DNA of 42,725 nt, taken from positions 1 through 42,725 of the forward strand of contig JADCJJ010000038.1 in NCBI GenBank assembly GCA_020247085.1. Reading direction: 5' to 3'. The position numbers and the translations under genes were made by a program. Below are positions 20,253 through 26,902 of the stretch, one piece after another (the first letter of the stretch is position 1; each line of letters starts with the position of its first letter). The notes under the pieces are model-generated. The model did not search any database. It was given only the letters and a program-made list of their open reading frames with translations, and was not told where the DNA came from. Source of the DNA: Myxococcaceae bacterium (GTDB lineage Bacteria; Myxococcota; Myxococcia; Myxococcales; Myxococcaceae).

Positions 20253-21893
20253 TCACTGCGCGGGGAACTCGACGCGCACGTTCGACTCGCGCCCCTCCAC
20301 GACGGTCACCTTCCGCACCGCCGCGGTCCCGCCGGGCGCCCGGAAGCTGACCGTTCGCACGCCCGCCGCCACGGGGAGCCTCGCCACGGGCGTCGTGGCG
20401 ACGTGCTTGCCGTCGACGAAGACGTCGGCCCACGGCACCGCGTCGGCGGTGAGGTACCCGATGGCGGCGGCCTTCTGGTGAGGCGGAGGCGAAAGGCTCG
20501 CAGCGCGCACCCGCACGGCGCCGGCGCCTCCAACGGCGCCCCTCGCCGCCGCGACGGGCCCACCACCGCCGGCGCCACCTTCGGCCGCCGCGACGGGCCC
20601 ACCACCGCCGGCGCCACCTTCGGCCGCTGCGACGGGCCCACCACCGCCGGCGCCACCTTCGGCCGCTGCGACGGGCCCACCATCGCCGGCGGCACCTCTC
20701 CCAAGCGTGACGGCCGCGCTGCCGACGGCTCTCTCAGCCGACTCCGGCGCCCCGGCGACGCGGACCCTCTCGCTGGGGAGCGGGCCTCGCCGGGCCTCCT
20801 CCCTCGCGCGCCGCCCCCAGACGCCCGCGGCGAGCGAGACGACGATGACCGCCACCAGCGACGCCCCGGCGACGACCACCCACCGCTCCAGCCGAGGGCG
20901 TGGCGCGGACACCGAGGCGCCGCCCGCGAAGCGCCGCGTCACCCGAAGCTCCTGCAGGGCCGCGCCGGACGGGTCGAGCTGCGCCTCGTCTCGAGTCGGC
21001 ACCCTCACGCGCCGAAGGAACTCGGCCAGCTCCGGGGCGCTCGAGACCGGCCCGTCGAGGAGCGCGTCGCGAAAGCTGGCGGCGTCGGAGAACCGCTCAC
21101 CCGGCGTGCGAGCCATCGCCCGGTGCAGCGCCTGCTCGAGGCCCGGCGTGACGTCGGGCCGCAGCTCGCGCAGCGGCCTGGCCCGCCCTTCGAGAACGGC
21201 CCTGAGCGTCTCCTCCTGGGTCTCCCCGCGAAACGGGTTCACCCCGGCGATGACCTCGTAGAGCGTGACCGCGGCCGCGTAGAGGTCGGCCCGCCCATCG
21301 AGGCGCGAGGCGTGCGACAGCTGCTCCGGCGCGATGTACGCGGCCTTGCCCTTGATGACGCCAGAGCGGGTCCCCGCCTCCCCGACCCGGGCGATGCCGA
21401 AGTCGGTCAGCTGCACCGCGCCGGACGTGGACAAGAGGATGTTCGAGGGCGTGACGTCGCGGTGCACCAGCTTGAGCGGTCGCCCCTTCGAGTCGCAGAG
21501 CGCGTGCGCGTAGCCCAGGGCCTCGCAGATGCCGAGGCCGATGGCGCGCACGACGGGCAGCGGAACGCGCACGCCCTGGTCCGAAAGGGAGCGCAGGAGC
21601 TGCGCGAGGCTCACCCCGTCGACGAGCTGCATCGCGAGGAAGGGGCGCCCCTCGGCCTCGCCGACGTCGAAGACCTCGACGATGTTGGGGTGGTGCAGCC
21701 GCGCCGACAGCCGGGCCTCGTCGTAGAAGCGACTCACGGCGTCAGGCGATGTGGCGAGCTCGGCGAGCAGCAGCTTGAGCGCGACGAACTTCTCGAAGTC
21801 GCCGGCGCCCGTCTTCCTCGCGACGTACACCTCACCCATGCCGCCAGCCGCCAGCCGCCGGAGCACTTCGTAGCTGGCCGACACCCCACCCAT
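20253..21893 (-). CDS. Serine/threonine protein kinase with PEGA-type C-terminal domain
   Basis: LAAGGMGEVYVARK, ALKLL, HRDVTPSNILLS, DFGIARV; TM VVVAGASLVAVIVVSLAAGVW; C-terminal GYLTADAVPWADVFVDGKHVATTPVARLPVAAGVRTVSF. Confidence 0.93.
   Translation of the reverse strand: MGGVSASYEVLRRLAAGGMGEVYVARKTGAGDFEKFVALKLLLAELATSPDAVSRFYDEARLSARLHHPNIVEVFDVGEAEGRPFLAMQLVDGVSLAQLLRSLSDQGVRVPLPVVRAIGLGICEALGYAHALCDSKGRPLKLVHRDVTPSNILLSTSGAVQLTDFGIARVGEAGTRSGVIKGKAAYIAPEQLSHASRLDGRADLYAAAVTLYEVIAGVNPFRGETQEETLRAVLEGRARPLRELRPDVTPGLEQALHRAMARTPGERFSDAASFRDALLDGPVSSAPELAEFLRRVRVPTRDEAQLDPSGAALQELRVTRRFAGGASVSAPRPRLERWVVVAGASLVAVIVVSLAAGVWGRRAREEARRGPLPSERVRVAGAPESAERAVGSAAVTLGRGAAGDGGPVAAAEGGAGGGGPVAAAEGGAGGGGPVAAAEGGAGGGGPVAAARGAVGGAGAVRVRAASLSPPPHQKAAAIGYLTADAVPWADVFVDGKHVATTPVARLPVAAGVRTVSFRAPGGTAAVRKVTVVEGRESNVRVEFPAQ
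20545..20696. repeat. 39-bp in-frame tandem repeat, about 4 copies (GGPVAAAEGGAGG)
   Basis: GACGGG anchors at 20553, 20592, 20631 and 20670, spaced exactly 39 bp, inside the kinase gene. Confidence 0.9.
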
Positions 21894-23738: not shown

Positions 23739-24497
23739 TCAGCGGCCCGCCTCCACGCCTGGCACCTCGAGGCCGAGGGCCCGCTTCACCTCGGCGATGG
23801 GCAGCCCGCCGAAGCGCGCCTTCACCTGGGGCAGCGTGCCGAAGCTCCGCGGGTGCATGCGGTCGACGTAGATGACGCCGTCGAGGTGGTCGGCCTCGTG
23901 CTGGAGGATGCGCGCCGGCCACCCCCGCGCGCGCCACGAGACGGGCGCCCCCGCCTCGTCGAGCCCCGTCACCTCGACCTCGCGCCAGCGCTCCACGAGG
24001 GCCGCGTAGCCCGACACCGACAGGCACCCCTCGAAGAAGGTGACGCGCTCGTCGCCGACGGGCTTGAGCGTCGGGTTGACGAAAACGCGCAGGGGCAACG
24101 GCACCCGCTCCCGCTCGGCGCGCTCGACTGGCGTGAGCGCGGCCTGCAGCTCGGCCCGGTCCTCGAGCACGAAGACGCGCAGCGACACCCCCAGCTGCGG
24201 GGCGGCCAGGCCGACGCCCGGCGCCTGCCGCATCGCCTCGGTCATGCGCGCCAGCAGGGCGCGGAACTCGGCCGTGCCGAGCTGCTCGGGCGTGACGTCG
24301 CGGGCGCGCTCCCGCAGCACCGGGTGACCAACCTGGACGATGGGGTTTTCCATGGGCGTTCCTGGCGGGGGCATGCCCGCGGCTGGCGAGGCGAGGCCCG
24401 GGCCGGCGCACCCGGCCAGCGCGGCCACCAGCAGCGCCGCGGCGCCAGCGCCGGGCGAGGTGAGCGCCCCACGGCCGCGTCGGCGCCGAAGCCTCAC
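23739..24497 (-). CDS. Peptide deformylase-like protein with predicted lipoprotein signal peptide
   Basis: GVGLAAPQ, EGCLS and QHEADHLDG motifs. The GTG start at 24497, overlapping the upstream TGA, gives MRLRRRRGRGALTSPGAGAAALLVAALAGC (lipobox LAGC). Confidence 0.88.
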   Translation of the reverse strand: MRLRRRRGRGALTSPGAGAAALLVAALAGCAGPGLASPAAGMPPPGTPMENPIVQVGHPVLRERARDVTPEQLGTAEFRALLARMTEAMRQAPGVGLAAPQLGVSLRVFVLEDRAELQAALTPVERAERERVPLPLRVFVNPTLKPVGDERVTFFEGCLSVSGYAALVERWREVEVTGLDEAGAPVSWRARGWPARILQHEADHLDGVIYVDRMHPRSFGTLPQVKARFGGLPIAEVKRALGLEVPGVEAGR

Positions 24498-26902
24498 GGG
24501 CCGACGAAGACCTCGACGTCGATGGTTCGCGCCGGGCCCTCGACCGACAGCGCACCGCCGGCGCCCGTCAGCGGCCCCTGCCCCTGCAAGCGAACGACGG
24601 GCCGCGGGCCGGCGCGCGCGACACACCCGCGCTGGGTGGGCGAGGCGCAGTCGGGCAGGGCGACGCCCCCCTCGGCGAAGGCCGCCTCGCCCGAGGGTGA
24701 CGACGACCACGTGGTGCCGTCGCGCTCGACGAAGCGGGCGGCCCCGCCGGGCGCCCACCACACCACCCGCTCGCGCTCGACGTCGTCGAGGTCGACCGTC
24801 GGAGGCTCCGCCGGCACCAGGGTGTCGACGCGCTCCGGCAGCCGCGGCACCACCGCGCCCCGGCGCAGCCACGCCGGAATGTCGCCGGGCCCCGCCTCGG
24901 CCGTCACGTCTGCCGGGCCCACCAACCGGCCAGCGCCCGTCAACGGCACCCACTCCCCGGCCGGCACGTGCACCGCCCGCCGCGTCGCGCCCTCGTCGAC
25001 GATGGGCGCCACCAGCAGGCTGGGGCCGAGCAGGTACTCGTCGCTCACCGTCCAGGCCAGAGCGTCGTCGGGGTGCTCGAGGAAGAGCCCGCGCATGATG
25101 GGCACGCCGGTGGCTTCGGCCTCGCGCGCCAGCCCATCGAGGTACGGGAAGAGCCCGACGTGCACCTTCGCCCACCGCTTGAAGTGCGCCAGCGTCTCGG
25201 CGTCCTTCTCGAAGCTCCAGTTGTCTCGCGGGTCGATGCCGTGGTGCGTGCGCATCACCGGCGACAGCGCGCCGAGCGTCGTCCAGCGGAAGAAGAGCTC
25301 CTTCGTCGAGTTCGGGTTCGTCGCCGACTGGTACCCGGCGATGTCGTGCGCGTACGTCGACACGCCGGCGAGCCCGAGGTTGATTCCCATGGGAATCACC
25401 GTGAAGAGCCCGTCGTCGCGTTGAAAGCTGGTGCGCTGGTCGCCGGCCCACACCACCGGCGCCAGCGAGTTGGTGCCGAACCACCCGGCCCGGGAGAAGA
25501 AGGCGAGCCGCGAGCCCGACGGGTCGCGCTCCCGCAGCACCTCGGCGTTGAGGCGCACCCACTCGGTCGGGTACCGGTTGTGCGCCTCGAGCGGGTTCTC
25601 GCCGCTGGCCAACACCGCGTCGTGCGGCAGCCACTCGCCGTAGTCCGCCATCCACCCCTTGAAGCCGACGTCGAGCGCGAGGCGCAGGTAGCGCTTCACC
25701 CACGCCCGCGTCTCGGGCCGCGACAGGTCCGCCAGCCCCGTCGGCTTGAAGGTCACGCCGTCGAAGAGATAGGGGGCGCCGCGCGCGGTGGTGACGAAGT
25801 GCCCGCCGGCGGTGGCCTCGTCGAAGATGCGCTCCTTCTCGACGATGAAGGTGTTGAAGTAGGCCTGCCAGTCGAAGCCCTGCGCCGCCAGCTCCGCCGC
25901 CAGCGCCTCGGCGCCCGGGTAGAGCGCGCGGTCCAGGTCCCACTCCTCCTCGAGCCGGTAGCCCATCGCGTTCTCCCGCCCTCCGCGGAAGTCCTCGGTC
26001 CAGATGGCTGACGAGGGAATGTCGTTGTCACGCAGCACCTTCGCGACGCGGCGCACCTCGGCCGAGCCGAAGATGGCGTCGTTCCACGGCGCGAAGGCCA
26101 TCGTCGGCGCGCGCGCTGGCCGCCCCAGCACACCCGCGGTCGCCCGCGACAGGGCCGCCTTCGGCGTCTCGCCGTGGAAGACCCACAGGGTGAAGGCGTT
26201 GCTCCACACCTCGACGCGCCAGCGGCTCGCGTCGCCGGTGCACAGCTCGAAGACGCTGCGGGCGTCGCTCTCGGCCACCGCGATGAAGCCCCGGTTCGAG
26301 AGGAAGGTGGGCATCGGGTAGCTCGAGGCGTGGCGCGTGCCCTCGAGCATCCACGCCTCGGGGTACTCATCGTCGGCGAGGCGCTTGCCGATGCCGGGCT
26401 CGCTCGTCCACAGGGCGACGGTGTGGCCCCGGTGGTCGACGCCGTCGGCCTGGCCGCCGAAGCCGAGGAAGCGGTCGGTCTCGGCGCAGGCGAAGGACAG
26501 CGAGAGGCGGTTCACCGAGGGGTCGGCCGCGCGCACCGAGAGGGCCAGCGCTCCGTCGGTCGCCGTCGCCTCGACCGCGACGACGACCGCGCCCTGGGCG
26601 TCACGGTAGCTGCCACGGCCCGCGCTCGCCGAGAGCTGGTCCCACGAGAACTGCGCGGCCTCGACCCATGGCTGGGCGCCGTCGGTGACGCGCCAGCTGC
26701 CGTACTGCATCTCGTAGCGCGCCCTCGACGTGCGGACCGCCGCCTGGGCGCCCGTCGCGCCGGTCAACAGCGTGGCGCCCCGCGCCGACACCGAGAGGAC
26801 CCCCTGCGAGACCGGCAGCTCGAAGCCACCCCACTGCGGAACGGACGGAGCACAGCCAGCCAGGACGAGCACCACGGGCACGAGACGCACGTGGTCCGTC
26901 AT
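24494..26902 (-). CDS. Glycoside hydrolase family 31 lipoprotein (alpha-glucosidase / sulfoquinovosidase-like)
   Basis: MTDHVRLVPVVLVLAGCAPS lipobox; IWTEDFRGG, GFKGWMADYGEWLPHDAV, VWAGDQRTSFQRDDGL, AHDIAGY. Confidence 0.85.
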   Translation of the reverse strand: MTDHVRLVPVVLVLAGCAPSVPQWGGFELPVSQGVLSVSARGATLLTGATGAQAAVRTSRARYEMQYGSWRVTDGAQPWVEAAQFSWDQLSASAGRGSYRDAQGAVVVAVEATATDGALALSVRAADPSVNRLSLSFACAETDRFLGFGGQADGVDHRGHTVALWTSEPGIGKRLADDEYPEAWMLEGTRHASSYPMPTFLSNRGFIAVAESDARSVFELCTGDASRWRVEVWSNAFTLWVFHGETPKAALSRATAGVLGRPARAPTMAFAPWNDAIFGSAEVRRVAKVLRDNDIPSSAIWTEDFRGGRENAMGYRLEEEWDLDRALYPGAEALAAELAAQGFDWQAYFNTFIVEKERIFDEATAGGHFVTTARGAPYLFDGVTFKPTGLADLSRPETRAWVKRYLRLALDVGFKGWMADYGEWLPHDAVLASGENPLEAHNRYPTEWVRLNAEVLRERDPSGSRLAFFSRAGWFGTNSLAPVVWAGDQRTSFQRDDGLFTVIPMGINLGLAGVSTYAHDIAGYQSATNPNSTKELFFRWTTLGALSPVMRTHHGIDPRDNWSFEKDAETLAHFKRWAKVHVGLFPYLDGLAREAEATGVPIMRGLFLEHPDDALAWTVSDEYLLGPSLLVAPIVDEGATRRAVHVPAGEWVPLTGAGRLVGPADVTAEAGPGDIPAWLRRGAVVPRLPERVDTLVPAEPPTVDLDDVERERVVWWAPGGAARFVERDGTTWSSSPSGEAAFAEGGVALPDCASPTQRGCVARAGPRPVVRLQGQGPLTGAGGALSVEGPARTIDVEVFVGP

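Follow-up and report, generated by a model that had tools for sequence, protein, structure and literature searches.

Deformylation is taught as a cytoplasmic step linked to the ribosome. Eukaryotic PDF1A, like the peptide deformylase (PDF) described here, also has an N-terminal targeting sequence. Membrane proteins with N-termini that leave the cytoplasm probably retain the formyl group, being out of reach of any deformylase (PMC5454389). In a 2025 survey of accessory PDFs, lipoproteins go unmentioned and signal peptides come up solely in connection with substrate proteins (PMC12690207). Literature text searches, with most subscription journals outside their scope, found no lipoprotein or periplasmic deformylase. 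In Salmonella, internal starts in PagC, OmpX, and YfhG give short forms that lack the signal (PMC11005335). The gene described here lies in a 42,725-nucleotide stretch of DNA from a member of the Myxococcaceae, hereafter called the window. Its family marks the product as a deformylase and its signal as a lipoprotein, and the gene probably has two products.

A deformylase gene with a predicted lipoprotein signal

The open reading frame on the minus strand (24497–23739) starts with GTG and encodes, in the translation of the window, 252 amino acids with the N-terminus MRLRRRRGRGALTSPGAGAAALLVAALAGCAGPG. Judging by sequence, it is a PDF1A-type deformylase with intact motifs, preceded by a signal peptide of the lipoprotein type. 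The GTG start and the TGA stop of the gene before it share a four-base overlap (GTGA), and the start is homologous to the ATG or GTG starts of congeners. All three motifs of the PDF family (G-phi-G-phi-A-A-X-Q, EGCLS, and QHEXDH) are present. Translation and alignment place motif I (GVGLAAPQ) at 24218–24195, motif II (EGCLS, with metal-ligand Cys158) at 24032–24018, and motif III (QHEADHLDG, with His200, catalytic Glu201, and His204) at 23903–23877. The original prediction had called these motifs intact, with a slightly short range for motif III (23885–23904), and had described the GTG start at 24497, the lipoprotein signal, and the LAGC lipobox; the reading frame agrees with it on each, with coordinates right to within a few bases.

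The predicted signal peptide (residues 1–29; 24497–24411) has a basic n-region, RLRRRRGR, which is unusually long and Arg-rich, and a hydrophobic h-region, AAALLVAALA, a type of signal that is kept across the clade. The lipobox LAGC (24419–24408), of the form [LVI][ASTVI][GAS]C, ends in Cys30 (24410–24408), the residue that would be acylated at +1, and is followed at +2 by Ala, with no Asp. A linker, translated as AGPGLASPAAGMPPPGTP (24407–24354) and of low confidence in the structural model, connects the Cys to an inner ATG (Met49; 24353–24351), one of two in-frame internal ATGs in the frame, at 24374 and 24353. The deformylase domain and its C-terminal tail occupy residues 51–252 (24347–23742), match Pfam Pep_deformylase (PF01327) at 3.1e-45, and are modeled by AlphaFold with a pLDDT of 92–99 over about residues 51–240. 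In a fold search, the best PDB matches are plant and human mitochondrial PDF1A (E 8.5e-24); AtPDF1A (1zxz) and the human enzyme (3g5k) have ∼50% domain identity, a TM of 0.89–0.92 (target length), and the same three catalytic motifs. We are confident that the domain has the PDF fold and is nearest to type 1A by sequence and predicted fold. The domain is under purifying selection (pN of 0.10–0.17 versus pS of 0.36–0.46 in window pairs), and all 17 orthologues compared retain the full set of catalytic motifs.

The upstream, overlapping gene (24494–26902, minus strand) encodes a YihQ-type, alpha-glucosidase/sulfoquinovosidase-like GH31 protein, itself predicted to be a lipoprotein (MTDHVRLVPVVLVLAGC), and the two genes are presumably translationally coupled. 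This gene adjoins the deformylase gene in congeners G002–G006; it is not at that place in G001 or in other genera. GH31 and the deformylase are probably a pair of envelope enzymes in one transcript. Elsewhere in the window, 20253–21893 (minus strand) encodes a Ser/Thr kinase that matches PEGA weakly and has a linker made up of near-identical GGPVAAAEGGAGG repeats.

The window's gene is neither the only def of its genome nor the fmt-linked one. The original prediction had raised a second, housekeeping def beside fmt. A standard PDF1B-type def with intact motifs does exist (G000:C445:33649–34104), but in this assembly it has no fmt next to it: fmt lies on a different contig (C101) and is truncated at the contig edge. 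Because a PDF1B-type def is present elsewhere in the genome, cytosolic deformylation need not depend on the gene in the window. The gene that follows the standard def (L128; G000:C445:34277–36043) is not fmt; its product resembles outer-membrane assembly proteins and reads by eye like POTRA/Omp85.

Distribution and history of the signal

Orthologues were gathered at the levels of genus, family, order, and phylum, and their upstream frames were read. In 19 orthologues, all members of a single clade, the domain has an in-frame lipobox before it; 17 of them belong to the order of the window and two to other families within the phylum. The signal-bearing orthologues, most of which start with ATG, represent at least seven genera within the order, plus two further families. 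A fixed rule (a start codon, a basic n-region, a hydrophobic stretch, and a lipobox 8–40 codons before the domain) was applied to 127 loci. In frame 0, it was satisfied by 16 of the 127, all within the clade; no locus outside the clade scored and, across the 127 loci, none did in frames +1 and +2. Clade members that the strict rule missed have visible lipoboxes (VVSC in L091, LSAC in L092, and CASC in L151). No lipoprotein PDF was present among the loci from other phyla that served as outgroups (L004–L082). The signal sequences themselves, for example MRLLVIVAVFATAC, MRYLIIIAVFTTAC, VRVALVALVVLSGC, MNFEIRNIALLGVLLVGC, and MRFTLAFSLLLCASC, are very divergent while their type is retained, as expected of a signal peptide.

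The pattern is not explained by a chance lipobox in a GC-rich frame, which is ruled out by its clade-wide occurrence and by the frame controls. In the window and five congeners (G002–G006), the outer start sits in an identical ATGA/GTGA overlap with the GH31 lipoprotein gene. Constraint from this overlapping gene is likewise ruled out as the reason for conservation, as the signal is present in G001, which lacks GH31 and has an outer ATG start with its own GAGGAGGGG, and in GH31-less genera, where it is retained despite unrelated gene neighborhoods. Between G002 and G004, the closest pair, changes in the signal region are synonymous only (2 S, 0 N). We therefore regard the lipoprotein form, as read from these frames, as very probably a real and conserved genetic feature. 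In genus g16 (L114, L115, and L154), the outer start is near a divergently oriented gene. A TAGTGT ∼6 nt upstream of the ATG in L114 and L154 suggests that the long form is translated without a leader.

A maximum-likelihood tree was computed from 69 domains with the N-terminal extension excluded. The 17 lipoprotein forms included fall in one group (support of 88/91), together with L095 (G008) and L155 (G123), two clade members on longer branches that have no lipobox. Three state changes are required on this tree, consistent with one gain of the lipoprotein state and two losses. L095 and L155 are apparent cases of secondary loss of the export signal, and thus the signal can be lost.

The nearest related clade consists of Myxococcus-type cytosolic PDF1A-like proteins (L096–L127), which have 52–58% identity and come from the same family of genomes. 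Unlike the lipoprotein form of the window, they have no signal peptide and start directly at the domain. According to the original prediction, relatives lacking an N-terminal extension would speak against a lipoprotein. Such homologues do exist, but those of Myxococcus-like genera (MVLKIVQ...) are a separate group in the tree, and the others are the apparent losses in L095 and L155. Genomes of the family have one copy each at a stringent threshold, and lipoprotein and cytosolic types never occur together. Because of this, they appear to be alternative versions of one accessory gene. Among plasmids, the protein of the window has matches in 845 records, all below 60% identity.

A probable inner start

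The original prediction had treated the GTG at 24497 and an internal ATG as alternatives. An inner start is indeed possible, but it is probably additional, as both it and a Shine-Dalgarno-like sequence before it are conserved. The inner ATG of the window would yield a 204-amino-acid cytosolic PDF that starts with MENPIVQVGHPVLR. All 17 lipoprotein orthologues from the order have an ATG or GTG 3–7 codons before the domain, compared to 38% of five-codon windows in the domain. The position of the start varies within these limits while its upstream spacing is kept. In most of these orthologues, the preceding codons form a Shine-Dalgarno-like sequence, as in TCA GGA GGC TCC ATG, CCC GGA GGT CCC ATG, CCG GGA GGC AAG GTC ATG, and CCG GAG GCA CGC ATG. 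Shine-Dalgarno energies of −6 kcal/mol or below were found for 13 of 17 inner starts versus 48 of the 308 ATG/GTG codons that lie in frame within the domain (p = 1.5e-7; species are related and counts are not independent). With the same caveat of kinship, energies reach −9 in nine of 17 inner starts versus four of 308 in the domain, and this strongest class is present in three of seven genera. Most orthologues have GGAGG or AGGAG. The window has only AGGA (24363–24360), located 6 nt 5' of the inner ATG within CCA GGA ACG CCC ATG, and the site is weak (−4.3 kcal/mol), with 38% of domain positions equally strong. No convincing inner site was found in L151, L152, and L153.

The chief competing interpretation of the inner site is a Shine-Dalgarno-like pause. 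If the outer start alone is used, the protein would be purely envelope anchored, the inner ATG would be a relic of an ancestral cytosolic start, and the GGAGG-like sequence would either stem from a Gly-rich linker or act as a translation pause that aids export. The domain begins where cytosolic relatives begin and hence an inherited Met is expected. However, the start codon shifts 3–7 codons before the domain and retains its upstream spacing, which counts against this reading. Synonymous recoding of each linker singly gave p values that are individually modest (0.02–0.45), because Pro-Gly-Gly-type linkers already favor GGAGG. Yet the rare Gly codon GGA is concentrated exactly at the inner site, where it accounts for 15 of 22 Gly codons, whereas it accounts for none of eight elsewhere in the linkers and for 19 of 281 (7%) in the domain.

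A general codon bias of lipoprotein linkers is insufficient as a source of GGA, as judged from 29 control lipoproteins taken from gene neighborhoods in the same genomes. Their linkers use GGA in eight of 69 Gly codons, and only four of the 29 have an inner Shine-Dalgarno-like sequence plus start, versus 13 of the 17 deformylase orthologues. Early Shine-Dalgarno-like elements in mRNAs of Escherichia coli membrane proteins do cause pauses, but in periplasmic proteins early pauses are apparently depleted, not enriched (PMC4359368). L151 and L152, with a lipobox and no inner site, fit exclusive use of the outer start. On balance, we consider exclusive use of the outer start unlikely. Given the kinship of the species, the recoding p values, and the AGGA that is all the window offers, we hold internal initiation to be somewhat more likely than not in the clade, and a little less likely in the window itself. 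Our preferred reading, which these patterns make likely, is an envelope lipoprotein deformylase that probably also has a cytosolic form produced by internal initiation.

A proposed envelope enzyme and its relation to known systems

From sequence, we infer a scheme of lipidation, location, use of both starts, extracytoplasmic activity, and substrate. Ribosomes starting at GTG 24497, coupled in the genus to the end of the GH31 gene, would make a Sec-exported precursor, which Lgt and LspA would process at Cys30 into a lipid-anchored enzyme. This form is probably located in the outer membrane, the most likely destination given Ala at +2. The +2 rule comes from E. coli and may differ in myxobacteria. 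The same mRNA probably serves the start at 24353, with the Shine-Dalgarno-like sequence inside linker codons, to give a soluble cytosolic enzyme of ordinary size (204 residues). Iron-form PDFs are oxygen sensitive, a point against the scheme that concerns the metal used in the periplasm. An enzyme in the envelope would need a formylated substrate beyond the cytoplasm, for which the original prediction had offered secreted formylated peptides or signals as examples. The likeliest substrates would be formyl-Met ends that escape cytosolic deformylation, as on membrane proteins with an N-out topology, or else formyl-peptides set free by lysed prey or neighbors. Periplasmic formyl-Met on N-out membrane proteins has been proposed (PMC5454389); prey formyl-peptides may be a second candidate for a predatory lineage. 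We put forward, as a credible but still tentative model, that one gene supplies a cytosolic and an outer-envelope PDF via two conserved starts, and that the latter removes formyl groups outside the cytoplasm, either from the formyl-Met termini of exported proteins or N-out membrane proteins, or from formyl-peptides released by prey.

Alternatively, the envelope form could be a decoy or resistance factor that, outside the cytoplasm, binds natural PDF inhibitors of the actinonin kind or tolerates them, rather than acting on formylated substrates. Accessory PDFs give resistance to actinonin, and residue 97 (Arg/Tyr) is decisive in Def1 and Def2 of Vibrio cholerae (PMC12690207). At the position of Arg97, the protein of the window has Ala165, and its relatives have Ala, Ser, or Thr. 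But the Arg is missing in the cytosolic myxobacterial clade as well, and its loss is thus not tied to export. Furthermore, a weak binder would be a poor decoy, and no biosynthetic or resistance genes were recognized adjacent to the gene, among neighbors that were not exhaustively annotated. We judge a decoy or resistance role to be quite improbable. As an observation in its own right, the absence of the actinonin-linked Arg97 equivalent from both the lipoprotein and the cytosolic (L096–L127) clades suggests naturally reduced sensitivity to inhibitors.

That the inner start alone is used, making an ordinary cytosolic accessory PDF below a GC-rich accident, would suit the AGGA 6 nt before ATG 24353, which is better spaced than the GAGG 13 nt before GTG 24497, and the choice of the inner ATG in the window by coding-potential gene calling, but it is highly improbable given a lipobox with a basic and hydrophobic signal in 19 clade members and in no shifted frame or other tested locus, the conserved position of the outer start codon, and a signal region free of nonsynonymous change in the closest pair, G002 and G004.

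In a predatory bacterial group, a conserved deformylase anchored in the envelope would overturn the assumption that no deformylase has access to exported N-termini, and would offer a direct genetic handle on the role of formyl-Met outside the cell. The dual start, if true, would be an evolutionarily conserved case of one bacterial gene serving two compartments.

Among known systems, plant and human mitochondrial PDF1A differ in that the targeting sequence of the window protein is a bacterial lipoprotein signal and its predicted destination is the envelope; unlike PDF1A, it has Ala165 at the position equivalent to Arg97. V. cholerae Def2 and integron PDFs are likewise encoded by a second def besides that of the standard PDF and have a changed Arg97 equivalent, but in contrast to these accessory PDFs (PMC12690207), the enzyme of the window itself bears an export signal, and this signal is conserved. 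In pagC, ompX, and yfhG of Salmonella, internal initiation likewise drops the signal peptide (PMC11005335). There, it was seen by ribosome profiling in one species, whereas for the deformylase, it is suggested by conservation across genera and concerns an enzyme normally confined to the cytoplasm.
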